From a virus: 27,620 bases of DNA. Numbering within the stretch: position 1 is the stretch's first letter; every line of letters starts with the position of its first letter. Positions 5,995 to 26,254 of this stretch are shown piece by piece. The notes under the pieces are model-generated. The model made no database searches. It had not been told where the DNA came from and was given only the letters and a program-made list of their open reading frames with translations. The stretch lies in the IMG/VR virus record IMGVR_UViG_3300035698_013766, positions 1 through 27,620 of that record; one strand, given 5' to 3'. Position numbers and translations under genes: made by a program.

Positions 5995-6264
5995 ATGTCT
6001 ATTACAACTAGTCCAGTTCTTCCAGCGCCAGTGCAGCAAAGCTTCAGTATGAAACTTCTTGCTGTGCCAACTCCGTACATGATCCATAAAATTCCTGCGA
6101 CATACGATAGTATGCCTCGGAACGGTGGAACAACTCTAAGGAGACGGCGCTATAATGCCCTAGCTACTGCTACAGTACCTTTAGGCAACTCGGGAATTTA
6201 TCCTCCTGCACAACAGCTAACCGCTGTTGATATTGATGCTACGATGTCTTTTTACGGTTTCAAG
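5995..6264 (+). CDS. Major capsid protein (N4-gp56 family), segment 1
   Basis: Codes for the first 88-90 residues of the HK97-fold coat protein. Family features include a basic T-L-R-R-R-R-Y-N-A-L stretch at 47-56, P-L-G-N-S-G-I-Y-P-P and D-I-D-A-T-M-S-F-Y-G at 79-88. The ATG at 5995 has GGGAG upstream and is preferred over a TTG at 5983. After Gly88 (GGT, ending 6258) the frame reads F-K-E-A-A and stops at TAA 6274-6276. The next expected residues (T-Y-V-V-L-N-E-Q-V) appear 53 bases further on in another frame (6312), and the remainder lies beyond a group I intron. The end at 6264 assumes hopping from AAG at 6262-6264; if the gap is removed exactly, this segment ends at 6258. Confidence 0.8.
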
Positions 6265-6311
6265 GAGGCTGCGTAAGCAGTTAGGTGCCGTAATGTTGAG
6301 TATTCTCCAAG
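6265..6311 (+). other. Candidate translational bypass (coding gap) element in the capsid gene
   Basis: Between the Phe-Tyr-Gly and Thr-Tyr-Val codons of the capsid gene lies non-coding sequence with a TAA stop (6274) and a net frame change. AAG at 6262-6264 and AAG at 6309-6311 could be take-off and landing codons giving a 47-nt gap. TTC at 6259 and 6303 is a second matched pair (44 nt). The region folds as a 7-bp helix (6252-6258 with 6287-6293), an inner CTGC-GTAA-GCAG hairpin (6269-6280) and an 8-bp helix (6295-6302 with 6322-6329) whose loop holds the landing site. A perfect AAGGAGG overlaps the take-off codon, and GAG lies eight bases before the landing AAG. T4 gene 60 has an analogous 50-nt gap. 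No start codon exists in the resuming frame, so re-initiation is unlikely. Confidence 0.6.
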
Positions 6312-6337
6312 ACCTATGTTGTACTCAACGAGCAGGT
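6312..6337 (+). CDS. Major capsid protein, segment 2 (nine-codon island)
   Basis: Encodes T-Y-V-V-L-N-E-Q plus the first two bases of a Val codon. It fits the N4-gp56 coat pattern in which Y-G-x-Y-V-x-x-x-E-Q-V-T-L-Q-N-Q-D-P-V-L-N is continuous. It is bounded on the left by the coding gap and on the right by the group I intron, with AGCAGGT (6331-6337) serving as the 5' strand of intron helix P1. Its frame differs from segment 1 and continues into 7146 after splicing. Confidence 0.75.
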
Positions 6338-7145
6338 AAATTAATGCTGCCTGCTTTAAACCGCCTCTGAATACCGGGGAACCCTAAGGGAGAAATCCTA
6401 TGGCAACCCGAGGCAAGCTTTAATGGTTTTTATAGGACCAAGTACGAATATGAAGAGAACGCATTTCATCCATGAACTTAGCTCTTTGCTTAAGGAGATC
6501 CTCATCAAGAGGAGTCGTTCCTTGAGTACCTGGGAGCGATCGTGGTCGTTCAAATGTAGCTCTCATCTTAAGCATAATCTCGCATTGACGAGTTTTGCAA
6601 ATAAGATAGGGCAAAATACATTCACAGAGATGCGTAAGTCGTTCACCGCTCACAGTCCAGACATAAGCCTGTTTACGGCTATTGGCTGCATGTTGTTTTG
6701 GTGTACGCTTGTTTTTAAGTCCGCCAAATTTATTTATGAGCCAGTCAATAAGTGGCTCATCGGTGTTGGTGACCTGCATATTCGTTTGATAGTATTTTGT
6801 GCCAGTTTTCGGATTACAGCTAAAATTACCAATATATATAGATCCCTCTCCATCAATAATTCCGGCGAGGTAAGCAAGATCTATATTCCGGTACTCGATC
6901 CGCTCGTAATTTTGTTTAACCATGTTGTGCTCCTATTTAGTAGTACAGGTACAATACAATACGACTATAAAAATTTCCACATTAAATTGCAGCCGCAACG
7001 ACTGAGCGAGGTGGATGCCCTAGCGGCATAAGCGACAGTCTGTTCTTGCAAGAAATTGTAAGAGGGATCTCCGAAGAGGGAACCCCGCCTAAAGTATAAA
7101 AGCTTGGGTCATAAGGTGAGCGATCACCTAAGTAACAGTTAAAAG
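6338..7145 (+). ncRNA. Group I intron in the major capsid gene
   Basis: 808-nt self-splicing intron inserted after the second base of a Val codon. P1 pairs AGCAGGT (6331-6337) with GCCTGCT (6349-6355), leaving the conserved U-G wobble at the splice site. P3 pairs 6361-6367 with 7008-7014, P7 pairs GACTG (7000-7004) with CAGTC (7036-7040), P8 is ATGCC/GGCAT (7015-7019, 7025-7029), and P9-region hairpins include 7043-7054 and 7115-7128. The 3' end is G7145. P10 pairs exon bases CATTA (7148-7152) with TAATG (6342-6346). Splicing gives E-Q-V-T-L-Q-N-Q-D-P-V-L-N in frame. P4-P6 are less clear because an endonuclease gene sits in the P6 loop on the opposite strand. Confidence 0.85.
6420..6923 (-). 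CDS. LAGLIDADG homing endonuclease, antisense within the intron
   Basis: 167 aa. One LAGLIDADG helix is visible, L-A-Y-L-A-G-I-I-D-G-E-G-S at about 16-28, with the acidic residue in place, so the enzyme should act as a homodimer. The following Y-x-T-N-M-Q-V-T-N-T-D-E-P-L-I and W-L-I-N-K-F-G-G patterns match the family. AGGAG lies seven bases before the ATG on the minus strand. The gene lies entirely inside the group I intron but reads opposite to the capsid gene, so it needs its own leftward promoter. Expected role: cutting intron-lacking capsid alleles so the intron is copied across. Maturase activity is possible but not indicated. Confidence 0.85.
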   Translation of the reverse strand: MVKQNYERIEYRNIDLAYLAGIIDGEGSIYIGNFSCNPKTGTKYYQTNMQVTNTDEPLIDWLINKFGGLKNKRTPKQHAANSRKQAYVWTVSGERLTHLCECILPYLICKTRQCEIMLKMRATFERPRSLPGTQGTTPLDEDLLKQRAKFMDEMRSLHIRTWSYKNH

Positions 7146-7809
7146 AACATTACAGAATCAAGACCCGGTCTTGAATCAGGCAGTTAAGCGCTTAGGCGTT
7201 TCGCTTCGTCAGACTGAAGACGAACTTACTCGAAATATGCTCGCTTCTACGGCTTCGCAAATTAATTGCTCGGGCGGTACTAACGGGGATAATCCTTCAG
7301 ACCTAGCACGAGCTGACATTGATGATGTTGTAGAGGCTCTAGTTTCGGCTGATGCTTACACAATTTCAGACGTTATCGAGGGACAAGATAAGTTCGGAAC
7401 CGGACCTGTCAGAGATGCTTTTTTTGTCATGGCAAGCACTAAAGTTCTTAAGAGTTTGGAGCAAGTTTCTGGATTTATTCCAAAAGCTCAGTACCCATCA
7501 CCAATGGAAGCGCTTCGCCCTGAATGGGGATCCGTTTCTAATACTCGATGGCTCCTAAGCTCGATTGGTTCGGTGTCTGCTAACGCGTCTGGTGTTGCTG
7601 GTGCTGACGTTTATAACTGCTTTGTCGCAGCTATGGAGTCTTATTCTTGCATCGAGCAGGACGGCTACAGCGCTCAATTCATCTACCGACCACCGATCTA
7701 TAACGGCCCTCTCGCTCTCAACGCGGAAGTTGGCTACAAGTTCGCGGAAGTTCCTACCATTGATAACGATCAGTGGATTCTAAATCTAAGATGCACACTA
7801 CCCGTATAA
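7146..7809 (+). CDS. Major capsid protein (N4-gp56 family), segment 3 (3' exon)
   Basis: Starts with the last base of the split Val codon and continues T-L-Q-N-Q-D-P-V-L-N-Q-A-V-K-R-L-G, the most recognisable motif of this coat family, then R-Q-T-E-D-E-L-T-R-N-M-L, and ends T-I-D-N-D-Q-W-I-L-N-L-R-C. With segments 1 and 2 the full protein would be about 317-319 residues, a normal size. There is no start codon in a sensible context at the exon edge (the first candidate in frame is a TTG at 7171 without Shine-Dalgarno), which supports splicing rather than a separate gene. Confidence 0.85.
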
Positions 7810-21622: not shown

Positions 21623-21916
21623 ATGGGATTCTTAAAAGACGAACGAAAGAAAATATTTGGAAGACGAGGACGAGGATTAGGAAAGACAATTATGCGACTA
21701 GCGATTTTGGCAATTTTATCAGCGGTTTTAACCAATGGTTGCATCTTCATAAATAAGAGCCTCGGGCTCCCGAATGATAATCTTCTTGAAACATATGCAG
21801 AAGAGATAATAGAATCGCAGACCGGACTGGTCATTGACTTAACCCCAAATCATCCTAATGAAGAAGAATGCAGAGATCAAGAATGCTGTAGAATTGACGA
21901 CCGGAGAAAAGATTAA
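21623..21916 (+). CDS. Small membrane/lipoprotein-like protein, 97 aa
   Basis: The N-terminus is basic (1-25). A hydrophobic stretch L-A-I-L-A-I-L-S-A-V-L-T leads to N-G-C (Cys40), resembling a lipoprotein signal, though Thr-Asn-Gly is not a canonical lipobox. The downstream P-N-D-N-L-L-E-T-Y-A-E-E-I-I...D-L-T-P-N motif recurs in small phage proteins next to lysis genes. TGAGG lies before the ATG. The last 20 residues (Glu/Cys/Asp-rich) are encoded in the overlap with the HNH gene and may have been created by its insertion. Possible spanin-like or lysis role. No endolysin or holin is visible. Confidence 0.6.
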   Translation: MGFLKDERKKIFGRRGRGLGKTIMRLAILAILSAVLTNGCIFINKSLGLPNDNLLETYAEEIIESQTGLVIDLTPNHPNEEECRDQECCRIDDRRKD

Positions 21917-22904
21917 CGACTGGACAGTTATCGAGAAAGAAAGTGGAAGGCATTGGGTATGCAAATGCAAATGCGGGGTAAAGAAAAGAGTCAATAAGTA
22001 CACTTTGAAAAATGGCACTTCAAAATGTTGTCGTACTTGTGCCAGTACCGAGATGCCACGCTCTAAGTTTGCCGAAGATCTTTCAGGCAAGATATACGAA
22101 GATTGGACAGTTCTTTCTAAATCCAAATCTAGAAAATATATTCATTACTGGAATTGTAAATGCAGTTGTGGAGCTTTAGGCGAAGTTGAAGGAAGCGCCT
22201 TACGAAAGGGAAAATCTAAAAGGTGTCGCTCTTGTTCCATAAAAAAAAGACCTAGACCGTCCGGGCTAAAATCATCACCAGATCTAAAAGATAAGAAATT
22301 TGGAAAATGGCTAGTAATAGAGAGGTCCCCTAAAAAAAATGGGCGCTCTGCTTGGCTGTGTGAATGTGATTGCGGAGAAAGGTATAGCGTAGTGGCCCAA
22401 ACGCTACTTAATGGGACTTCCTCTAGATGTAGAAAATGCTATATTCCCAAAGGCAATCCTACACACGGCCATTGTAAAGGTGGAAAAATCCCTGAGTATC
22501 ATATATGGAATAGCATGAAAGAAAGATGCAATAATCCAAACACCAAGTGTTATAAAAACTATGGAGGTCGTGGAATTTCGATATGTAAGAATTGGAATGA
22601 TTCCTTCGAGGTATTCTATAAATATATGGGGCCTAAACCGTTTAAAGGAGCTTCAATAGACCGTATTGACAATGAAGGAAATTACGAGCCAGGAAATGTA
22701 AGATGGGCTAATTCAAAACAGCAACTAGCTAATACAAGAAATCAGAAGTACGGAATATGTGTTACGCAGTGGTCAAAAGAAAATAACTTGGATAGATTTC
22801 ATGTTGCCAAACGATTAAAAGAAGGAATGTCTTTGAAAGAAATTAAAGAATCGGTTCAGTTGCCATATAAAGAGTGCGAAGAGGCCGAAGCCCCCTCGAA
22901 TTAA
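21858..22904 (+). CDS. HNH homing endonuclease with three zinc-finger modules
   Basis: 348 aa. Three repeats of a module (D-W-T-V-x-x, then W-x-C-x-C-x-C-G, then L-x-x-G-x-S-x-x-C-R-x-C) occupy about 20-61, 82-126 and 148-194; each should bind zinc. They are followed by an HNH-type nuclease at about 203-296: H-I-W-N-S-M-K-E-R-C-N-N-P, Y-G-G-R-G-I, I-D-R-I-D-N-E-G-N-Y and N-V-R-W-A. Standalone genes of this kind are mobile endonucleases in phages. The first 59 bases overlap the lipoprotein-like gene and no good Shine-Dalgarno is seen, so the start could be internal. Its 3' end overlaps the convergent nuclease gene by four bases. Confidence 0.8.
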   Translation: MKKNAEIKNAVELTTGEKINDWTVIEKESGRHWVCKCKCGVKKRVNKYTLKNGTSKCCRTCASTEMPRSKFAEDLSGKIYEDWTVLSKSKSRKYIHYWNCKCSCGALGEVEGSALRKGKSKRCRSCSIKKRPRPSGLKSSPDLKDKKFGKWLVIERSPKKNGRSAWLCECDCGERYSVVAQTLLNGTSSRCRKCYIPKGNPTHGHCKGGKIPEYHIWNSMKERCNNPNTKCYKNYGGRGISICKNWNDSFEVFYKYMGPKPFKGASIDRIDNEGNYEPGNVRWANSKQQLANTRNQKYGICVTQWSKENNLDRFHVAKRLKEGMSLKEIKESVQLPYKECEEAEAPSN

Positions 22905-24105: not shown

Positions 24106-24307
24106 GGTTTGCCTTTCGTTTAATCAATAGTTTGTTGTAAATTAATTGGTCCCCCTCTTCGACCCGTATCGAAGAAAGGGGATTTAAACACTTTGTGGTG
24201 CTGTTTATCTCGATCGCTTGGCTAGTATCTGTAAGATTTATTAGCCAGGCGTCTTTATCAATCCTGAATCTAAGCAGCTTTTTCAATGGCTCTCTTGATT
24301 TTGACAT
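24092..24307 (-). CDS. Small hypothetical protein, 71 aa
   Basis: Unrecognised basic protein (M-S-K-S-R-E-P-L-K-K-L-L-R-F-R-I). The frame extends to a TTG at 24325, but the ATG at 24307 with TAGGT upstream is better. It starts inside the 3' end of the annealase gene (38-base overlap) and ends 14 bases inside the next gene, so it is probably translated by coupling. Confidence is moderate because it is short and lacks motifs. Confidence 0.5.
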   Translation of the reverse strand: MSKSREPLKKLLRFRIDKDAWLINLTDTSQAIEINSTTKCLNPLSSIRVEEGDQLIYNKLLIKRKANHEDS

Positions 24308-26009
24308 ATGACCTACAGGCTTCAAGTTGTTCGTGATTTATTTTACTCAAATCTGAGACTTTACATATCTTTTTGAGCTCTGTTCTAATTTGCGTATGTC
24401 CGTTAAGATAAGAATCTAGCGCTTCCCACTCCTCTTTGCTAATTACATCTACTGGCTCGATAGTTTCCACTGTCTCAACAGGAACCGAAATAGGCTCCGA
24501 AACCTTCTCCGCTTGGTCCATCTCCTCGGAGCTATAGAGCCCCGATAGTTCCCCAGGGAACGCTCGACGAAGAGCCCGCGCCTCCGCGCAGTTTCCACAA
24601 ATCATAGAAAAACCATTTCGTCTAACGATAATTTTTCCACTTGGAACGGTCACACACCAAACTTTTCCTGATTTATTTGGCTGCTTAATAATTCCAGGAT
24701 TTCCCGATATAGGAGGAACAACTTTTACAGGATCAGGAGAGGAAATTGTATAACAATAGCCTTCCTTAGAAGAAATATCCGACATCCTGTTTTTTCTTGT
24801 CGAAATTGAATAACCTGCTTTACACGCAAGAACTTCAATCACATCGCAGTGAGAAGAACGACTTGTATAAATTCTACGAACGCCCGTTTTTTTATTTGAA
24901 TGTCCATCAAACAACTGCCAGGCATCTATAATTAGCTTGGCTTGTGTCGGAGTTAGTTTACTTAAGGACTCCCAGCAAAATGACTTATCATCAAGAATAC
25001 AAGAACTAATTAAGCCTTCATTTTTAAAAGTGAAAATTCTCTTATCAAAATTTGTCAAAATTATTCTAGATTCTGTATGTGCGACATCTCCGCGGCATCT
25101 TCTTATTCCTGTGAAGGCATTTACATAGTTGTTTAAGGCTTCGATTTTATATTTTCTAGATACCTCTATTTTCCATGATGAGTTACTTACTCTTGTGCCA
25201 TCAGCTAGCAAGTATCCAATTAGCCGGAATTTATCCGCATTAGGCTCTTCAATGCCAGCGGGTTCTGTATGCATTGGAATTTTCCAAGGTCCTCTATTAT
25301 GAGTTGTTTTATACATTGCCCCGGCCTCAACCTTTCCAAAAGTCGTAACCATGTCATGGTTTGGGGTTACTGAAAAATTTAGTCTTTGAGAATTAAACTC
25401 TATCATTTCTCCAGAGTACGACTGAGTAAATGGGGCCGAAGAAACCTGTTCTAGTCTATCATTGTTTACTTGTAGAATCGTTCCTTGGTTGACTTCGCTA
25501 AATCGACGGAATCCATGTATTGTCAATATTTCTGTATCTTCACTAAAACACTTCTCGATCATTACCGACGGCATTGAAATCCAAAGATTTTTCTTGGTGC
25601 TATATTCGTGAATAAAAGCGGTGGCGCTTACTTGATGCCAAGTTCCATCCTTGGTTTGCTTCTTCACGAAAACTTTAGCGCCCATAAGTTTCGTTCCCTT
25701 GCTTCCCTCTTCAAAGAGAAACTCCGTATCTTTCCCTGGGGCATAGCGTCCCGAGCGCTCCGCGATTAGACGGAAGCCGTCTATCGACGTTTGGATTGTC
25801 ATAGAGTTTCCGCGCTTAATCGCGTAGATTTGCTTCTGAATCGGATCAAGATTTTTGTGCTTGCAGATATGAGTAAACAGGTCAAACTCTTCATCTGTCA
25901 GACCCTTGGCTACTGTAGAGATCAGGAGCTCTTTCTTAGAGCTCCAGTCATTTTCTGAAATTGTCAGTTGGTCTGTAAGACAAGAAACTTCGTTTTGTGT
26001 ATCTGTCAT
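24270..26009 (-). CDS. bet: Bet/RecT-type single-strand annealing protein containing an intein
   Basis: 579-aa precursor. Extein: L-T-D-E-E-F-D-L-F-T-H-I-C-K then L-D-P-I-Q-K-Q-I-Y-A-I-K-R-G, T-I-Q-T-S-I-D-G-F-R-L-I-A-E-R-S-G-R-Y and, after the intein, C-A-E-A-R-A-L-R-R-A-F-P-G-E-L-S-G-L-Y. These are hallmarks of the phage lambda Bet family, which anneals single strands made by the partner exonuclease. A 320-aa intein (residues 154-473) sits between Lys153 and Cys474, in the most conserved motif. The mature protein would be 259 aa, normal for Bet, with an acidic C-terminal region. The ATG at 26009 follows AGGAG. It overlaps nothing upstream; the next gene starts inside its 3' end. Confidence 0.88.
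   Translation of the reverse strand: MTDTQNEVSCLTDQLTISENDWSSKKELLISTVAKGLTDEEFDLFTHICKHKNLDPIQKQIYAIKRGNSMTIQTSIDGFRLIAERSGRYAPGKDTEFLFEEGSKGTKLMGAKVFVKKQTKDGTWHQVSATAFIHEYSTKKNLWISMPSVMIEKCFSEDTEILTIHGFRRFSEVNQGTILQVNNDRLEQVSSAPFTQSYSGEMIEFNSQRLNFSVTPNHDMVTTFGKVEAGAMYKTTHNRGPWKIPMHTEPAGIEEPNADKFRLIGYLLADGTRVSNSSWKIEVSRKYKIEALNNYVNAFTGIRRCRGDVAHTESRIILTNFDKRIFTFKNEGLISSCILDDKSFCWESLSKLTPTQAKLIIDAWQLFDGHSNKKTGVRRIYTSRSSHCDVIEVLACKAGYSISTRKNRMSDISSKEGYCYTISSPDPVKVVPPISGNPGIIKQPNKSGKVWCVTVPSGKIIVRRNGFSMICGNCAEARALRRAFPGELSGLYSSEEMDQAEKVSEPISVPVETVETIEPVDVISKEEWEALDSYLNGHTQIRTELKKICKVSDLSKINHEQLEACRSYVKIKRAIEKAA
24591..25550 (-). mobile_element. Intein with LAGLIDADG endonuclease domain in the Bet gene
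   Basis: Codes for 320 residues. Splicing block A is C-F-S-E-D-T-E-I-L (Cys1 nucleophile). Block B contains V-T-P-N-H-D. LAGLIDADG-type helices L-I-G-Y-L-L-A-D-G and I-I-D-A-W-Q-L-F-D-G mark an endonuclease domain with Asp in both. Block F is V-W-C-V-T-V-P-S-G-K-I-I-V-R-R-N-G, and the C-terminal block ends I-C-G-N followed by extein Cys. The penultimate residue is Gly where most inteins have His; Asn is present. Insertion lies at E-K/C-A-E-A-R. Likely a homing intein; splicing competence with Gly is uncertain. Confidence 0.87.
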
Positions 26010-26011
26010 GA

Positions 26012-26254
26012 TTACTCTCCTTGCGCTTGTTTGATTTCGAAATCGTCGTAGTCGAAAGCTACTGCTAGCCACTCATGCTGACAGTCTTCACAGCATACAT
26101 ATTCCCCAGCTCCTTCCATTGGCTCTTGCCAGCAAGTGGAATCTTCGGGGAACTCAAGCTCGCAAATGGGGCATTCTAGTAGGTCCCTTTCAGTGCTAAA
26201 GGTTTCATCATGTAGACACTCGGTTTGTGCTTCGTATGCTGATTCTATGCTCAT
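26012..26254 (-). CDS. Small zinc-finger protein, 80 aa
   Basis: Acidic. C-P-I-C near residues 28-31 and C-C-E-D-C near 54-58 give a C-x2-C...C-x2-C zinc site, embedded in a Trp/Glu-rich sequence. AGGAG lies about six bases before the ATG. It is the first gene of the leftward recombination operon, just two bases before the annealase start. No family recognised. Such small leaders often accompany phage recombination genes. Confidence 0.6.
   Translation of the reverse strand: MSIESAYEAQTECLHDETFSTERDLLECPICELEFPEDSTCWQEPMEGAGEYVCCEDCQHEWLAVAFDYDDFEIKQAQGE

Follow-up and report, generated by a model that had tools for sequence, protein, structure and literature searches.

The window analysed here, that is the whole 27,620-nt stretch of a viral record, carries a capsid gene in which exon 1 is disturbed by a second, core-less intron of 53 nt, in addition to the 808-nt group I intron on which the preliminary description had concentrated; the smaller intron is the main feature of the locus and had been missed. 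Judging from comparison with relatives, the two introns of the capsid pre-mRNA are quite likely served by one group I core, namely that of the downstream 808-nt intron. A little more guardedly, we propose that non-autonomous group I introns, 28-58 nt long and consisting of a guide, a docking helix and a terminal G, have probably evolved in phages and would be cut out by the core of a downstream intron, so that the full intron could not be lost without losing the capsid protein. Group I introns are regarded as self-contained, each with its own core for removal, and in the literature covered, with thin coverage of subscription journals, no core-less group I intron served by a neighbour is described. 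The anatomy of the small intron, its covariation, its dependence on a nearby intron and the restoration of the capsid frame are read directly from the sequences and are presented first.

Two insertions interrupt the capsid gene

A search for intronless alleles had been suggested in the preliminary description, and intronless capsid relatives do exist; in these, the FYG at the end of exon 1 continues directly into TYVVLNEQV. In the window, 53 extra nucleotides (6259-6311) separate these two motifs, the TAA at 6274-6276 terminates the exon-1 capsid frame upstream of the 808-nt intron, and the frame entering EQV/TLQNQ differs from the exon-1 frame. Splicing at T6337/G7145 had been expected to restore the capsid frame, but it proved insufficient when taken alone, as the 53 nt must be removed too. 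With both 6259-6311 and 6338-7145 taken out, the gene gives a 317-aa product with 79% identity to the uninterrupted capsid of locus L003. Skipping of the micro-exon, with direct joining of 6258 to 7146, was rejected as out of frame, and thus two splicing events are needed. Translation of the capsid in two pieces by re-initiation was also considered and rejected, as there is no conserved right-frame start codon after the insert. Among cultured phages no close direct relatives were found, the best showing about 25% identity. The features of the locus are summarized in Table 1.

Table 1. Features of the capsid locus, in order of position in the window.
Feature	Position	Strand	Basis and remarks
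Capsid exon 1	5995..6258	+	M1..FYG, 3' end ...UUACGGU; tblastn to 80 loci, capsid contiguous in intronless relatives
P1' 5' strand, UUACGGU (exon 1)	6252..6258	+	pairs with 6287-6293; U6258-G6287 wobble at splice site
Mini-intron, 53 nt, core-less	6259..6311	+	missing from intronless relatives; 48 distinct relatives; in-frame TAA at 6274, last base G
Optional hairpin in P1' loop, GCUGC-GUAA-GCAG(U)	6267..6282	+	only in long mini-introns; fold, alignment
P10' guide strand, AGGU	6283..6286	+	pairs with 3' exon ACCU 6312-6315; covariation 48/48
P1' 3' strand, internal guide GCCGUAA	6287..6293	+	pairing, fold
Pc 5' strand, in mini-intron	6295..6303	+	pairing, fold
Micro-exon, 26 nt, TYVVLNEQ(V)	6312..6337	+	comparison with capsid of relatives
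Pc 3' strand, exon stretch abutting P1 of full intron	6321..6329	+	pairing, fold
P1	6330-6337 GAGCAGGU (exon) / 6349-6356 GCCUGCUU	+	U6337-G6349 wobble at splice site
Full group I intron, 808 nt	6338..7145	+	alignment with relatives and pair counts; 3' splice site from capsid comparison
P3	6361-6367 / 7008-7014	+	alignment pair counts
LAGLIDADG homing endonuclease gene (predicted), 167 aa	6420..6923	-	Pfam PF00961; AGGAG upstream of ATG
Sense open frame, 202 codons, no stop, in register with antisense gene	6423..7031	+	ORF/stop counts; putative coding role
P7	5' strand 6998..7004 with bulge (A6998, 7000-7004) / 7036-7041	+	alignment pair counts
P8 hairpin	7015..7029 (7015-7019/7025-7029)	+	alignment pair counts
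Capsid exon 3, TLQNQDPV...	7146..7809	+	capsid comparison

The 808-nt insertion is a group I intron

The larger insertion can, beyond reasonable doubt, be assigned to the group I introns, with a P3-P8 core and a P3/P7 pseudoknot. The intron had been claimed earlier with P1, its U-G pair, P3, P7 and P8, all of which could be traced by us as well, and both the U-G pair at the 5' splice site and the terminal G7145 are present. For the analysis of the core, the window intron with the endonuclease gene cut out was aligned with 22 compact introns (about 200 nt) of relatives. In this alignment, 99.5% of the cells of the assumed core (P3, P4, P5, P6, P7, P8) are standard pairs and two-sided changes were found in 20 of the 26 core pairs (0 of 500 shuffles), with a covariation score of 0.651, in comparison to 0.196 in shuffles and at most 0.123 when the pairing was slid. 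The covariance-model search proposed as a check gave a match below threshold: the Rfam group I model RF00028 matched the 808-nt intron on the plus strand with 12.6 bits, the gathering cut-off being 50. The same model equally misses the compact introns of the relatives at gathering scores, thus the low score reflects the reach of the model rather than an absent core, and the failed Rfam scans were replaced by the clade-specific alignment described above, which supports the core.

Group I introns occupy many different sites in the capsid gene of this clade, and a single gene may hold several (L173, L130, L081, L123 and others); many of these introns are ORF-less and about 200 nt long. L116 and L157, which have a mini-intron as well, are examples with a compact full intron of 260-273 nt that lacks an ORF.

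Anatomy of the mini-intron

The 53-nt insert looks like a group I intron reduced to its splice signals, as indicated by a P1 with a U-G pair (P1'), a guide shared between this helix and a P10 (P10'), and G as the last base. A catalytic core of its own (P3-P9) was found in none of the inserts, which are 28-58 nt long and of which the shortest are made up of the guide, the Pc strand and the terminal G; we therefore do not file the mini-intron as an autonomous group I intron. It is located 26 nt upstream of the full intron, and after its removal the junction of exon 1 and the micro-exon is predicted to read TTTTACGGT^ACCTATGTTGTACTCAACGAGCAGG. In Pc, the insert pairs with the exon stretch that immediately precedes P1 of the downstream full intron. 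The minimum-energy fold of the segment 6245-6358 contains P1', Pc and P1 together, with zero bases between Pc and P1. The first eight bases of exon 3 (7146-7153) also match 6290-6297 of the insert; this match is not shared by the relatives, and we regard it as chance.

The insert recurs in related capsid genes and covaries with its exons

In 54 related capsid loci (48 distinct), inserts of 28-58 nt occupy precisely the FYG^T position, and all are followed by a full intron downstream. The loci were collected by a pattern scan of viral contigs and with an exon-1 protein query. As the pattern by which many of them were found contains GTGCCGTAA, the constancy of P1' and of the GT of P10' is in part a product of selection. 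The pattern placed no demand on the variable base of P10', on Pc or on the terminal G, and 16 insert loci came from unbiased searches without it. Three loci with an intron at the window's site (L078, L081 and L087) have inserts of 52, 53 and 31 nt, respectively, at the same place, and a further copy is present in a contig of a Methylococcaceae MAG. The L078 mini-intron (2182-2233) is one base shorter than the near-identical L081 copy and has thereby lost the in-frame stop, which may be either a sequencing error or a real change. The insert lengths span all three frames, and 46 of the 48 distinct inserts contain an in-frame stop while the other two shift the frame, so that none of them can be read through.

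The terminal G is present in all 54 loci and the U-G pair at the mini-intron splice site in 30 of 30 aligned rows. Opposite the variable base of P10' is the wobble position of a threonine codon. This pair is Watson-Crick in 48 of 48 inserts (G-C in 30, C-G in 8, A-T in 5 and T-A in 5), with at least 15 changes each of the exon base and of the insert base on an exon-1 tree built without the P1' bases. In 30 aligned sequences, 95.4% of the cells of P1', P10' and Pc taken together pair, and 43 two-sided changes were counted, in comparison to 12.4 in shuffles. With a strict score required, removal of both introns restored the capsid frame in 36 of the 53 loci; the other loci are cut short, run into one more intron or narrowly miss the threshold. 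Inspection of tblastn gaps revealed no small inserts elsewhere in the capsid gene. We also considered an ssrA-like 'AA' C-terminus of the unspliced products (EAA*, RAA*, KAA*), which was rejected, the C-termini being diverse.

Pc links the mini-intron to the downstream intron

The Pc duplex has a mean energy of -11.5 kcal/mol with its own partners in comparison to -4.5 kcal/mol with swapped ones, and none of 5000 permutations reached the observed energy sum, which holds within the EQV site alone. The distance of the full intron downstream of the insert varies (26, 48, 50, 86 or 278 nt), and the site of the full intron changes at least 13 times on the exon-1 tree. In 41 of 48 loci the stretch adjacent to P1 is the most stable Pc partner within 330 nt; in the remaining seven, including the window (by 0.5 kcal/mol), a slightly more stable partner of the Pc strand is found elsewhere within this distance. 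L123 has an ORF-less intron in between, which Pc skips to pair before the third intron. In two protein-based, unbiased searches, 34 loci had an intron within the first 36 codons downstream of FYG, and the insert was detected in 16 of these; among the 99 loci lacking such an intron it was detected in none (p=1e-11). Introns at the same site are also found without any insert (L083-L085), which indicates that the full intron does not need the mini-intron.

Proposed mechanism and alternative explanations

We infer from the sequences the excision of the insert at the RNA level, the neighbour's core as its agent, the order of events, the docking geometry and any regulation. The inserts of 28 nt leave no room for a core, and its provision by the neighbour is the simplest reading. 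In the proposed mechanism, Pc would join the mini-intron to the exon bases before P1, and P1'-Pc would stand in for the P1-P2 of the full-intron core. The neighbouring core would dock P1' through Pc and first join exon 1 to the 26-nt micro-exon; Pc would then leave with the excised mini-intron, leaving P1 of the full intron free to dock, and the core would subsequently remove its own intron. We know of no direct precedent for the use of a 3' splice site located upstream of the core, inside the loop of Pc.

Alternatively, the mini-intron could be spliced by group I chemistry with a core supplied in trans by a further phage or host intron, or with the aid of a protein, while Pc only regulates the neighbouring intron. 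The gene family has introns at many sites, so other cores are at hand, and group I cores are known to act on distal splice sites, a second core having been proposed to serve a distal 5' splice site in engineered tandem introns (PMC10136302). However, Pc tracks one particular downstream intron over sites 26-278 nt away, in L123 it passes over an intervening intron, and no mini-intron was found without a nearby intron, which makes a core in trans rather improbable.

We regard as very improbable that the insert and Pc form a riboswitch-like regulator of the downstream intron, with no full-length capsid made from this gene copy. A model for such regulation is offered by the c-di-GMP allosteric group I intron of C. 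difficile, in which an aptamer just upstream of the intron shifts the 5' splice site (reviewed in PMC3984707), and a structured element directly upstream with a bearing on 5' splice-site choice is common to both systems. In C. difficile, this element is a ligand aptamer, whereas the element described here brings its own splice-site signals and needs to be excised, and in the 28-nt inserts the guide, the Pc strand and the terminal G leave nothing for an aptamer. Moreover, a stop or frameshift is found in all 48 distinct inserts, the capsid exons on both sides are conserved (79% over 317 aa) and no second capsid gene was seen within the window.

It is even less probable that the insert stays in the mRNA and is bypassed by the ribosome, its hairpins promoting the hop. 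The bypass element of T4 gene 60 (the gene 60 / mobA cassette) is a frame-breaking insert of about 50 nt beside a homing-endonuclease element, and our insert is likewise short, structured, frame-breaking and adjacent to an endonuclease-bearing element. Bypass was nevertheless rejected on the mismatch of take-off and landing codons, as the take-off GGT is never the last triplet of the insert (AAG, TTG, ATG, TAG, GAG, ACG or GTG); group I splice signals are found instead, and the guide for both exons with its U-G at the junction, the covariation of P10' and the tracking of the intron by Pc would be left unexplained. An assembly or sequencing artefact or a decaying gene is refuted for practical purposes: all loci but a few are metagenomic contigs, but the insert is present in 54 loci from many independent samples and shows compensatory changes.

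Relation to known group I introns

Of the known elements, the small degenerate PaSSU group I introns of fungal rDNA come nearest to the mini-introns. They are 56-81 nt long, with a P1 carrying G-U at its splice site, a P10, and a PM helix that pairs mid-intron with the 3' exon; in vitro, about 300 nt of flanking sequence was required for their splicing. An own P7 and a terminal U have been ascribed to them, and they stand alone and were not connected with a neighbouring intron (PMC3160393). The mini-introns share with them the tiny size, P1, P10 and the pairing of mid-intron with the 3' exon (Pc here), but they are 28-58 nt long, all end in G, have no room for P7 (inserts of 28-32 nt), and their Pc tracks P1 of an adjacent intron that is complete. 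Pairs of group I introns around an exon of 23-34 nt, with exon skipping, are known from Twort orf142 (23-nt exon) and Coxiella 23S rRNA, and in such tandem arrangements a distal 5' splice site can be served by the downstream core (PMC10136302). A short exon between two group I introns is common to these cases and ours; however, in Twort and Coxiella both introns have cores, whereas here one intron is core-less and skipping of the micro-exon is out of frame.

The antisense endonuclease gene and the overlapping sense frame

The preliminary description placed a LAGLIDADG gene opposite to the intron, which was borne out by a match of the minus-strand ORF to LAGLIDADG_1 (PF00961; 25.9 bits, cut-off 23.1). 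Its view that antisense intron endonucleases are mainly eukaryotic did not hold. Mycobacteriophage LittleE has an 819-bp capsid-gene intron with a bottom-strand LAGLIDADG frame, the splicing of which was shown by RT-PCR (PMC3706429), and 42 distinct antisense LAGLIDADG genes were counted across the capsid family in comparison to 5 sense ones. LittleE and the window thus share a group I-like intron of about 0.8 kb in the major capsid gene with an antisense LAGLIDADG frame; unlike in the window, no mini-intron has been reported in LittleE. The closest relatives of the endonuclease (59-66% identity) are in introns of the same capsid gene and are antisense as well. The antisense orientation is a habit of this clade and not a single oddity.

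Consensus scans for a leftward promoter of the endonuclease gene gave no more than chance. An inverted repeat, GTACCTGTAC, is located upstream of the antisense gene (6924-6965, minus strand); GTACAGTTACTGTAC in L083 resembles it, and the position is upstream of the gene in L083 and L086. The repeat could possibly be an operator or promoter element.

The sense frame that overlaps the endonuclease gene has counterparts in other loci. In 23 of 38 loci with an antisense endonuclease, the frame of the capsid strand that is in register with the gene has almost no stops (0-2) over 140-307 codons, and the other two frames of these loci contain 5-37 stops; the three frames of the window contain 10, 16 and 0. 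TTA, CTA and TCA codons are avoided, and in eight loci the sense frame continues through the intron in frame into the next capsid exon. The remaining 15 of the 38 loci are without this bias (4-15 stops). Loci named for the sense frame are L209, L115, L139, L180, L083-L085 and L080. Perhaps the stop-free frame keeps ribosomes on the unspliced RNA.

Host hints and other genes of the record

The capsid family is also found in bacterial genomes, namely in three Chlamydiota MAGs (Parachlamydiaceae, Simkaniaceae on a 35.5 kb contig, and Parachlamydia) and in one Methylococcaceae MAG, the copy of which has the mini-intron (loci L241, L243, L244 and L242 in all). The phages may infect environmental chlamydiae, a binning error being possible. 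Elsewhere in the record, a RecT/Bet recombinase gene (24270-26072, minus strand; Bet 83 bits) is interrupted in frame; the interruption looks like an intein, and an intein N-terminal match in this gene is weak and below the cut-off. A 348-aa Cys-rich ORF (21858-22904, plus strand) gave no family match and contains a YGGRGI...IDRIDN-like stretch, which we take to be typical of phage HNH-type proteins.

Implications

The mini-intron would make loss of the full intron costly, as the capsid gene could no longer be joined. If the proposed dependence is true, it suggests that the essential gene is a hostage of the mobile intron, which would thereby be stabilised. For group I introns, nature appears to have parted the splice signals from the core, in parallel to the step that has been proposed to lead from group II introns to spliceosomal introns. 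The mini-introns would then be very small natural group I substrates, and they would indicate a route by which a self-splicing intron becomes dependent on another.
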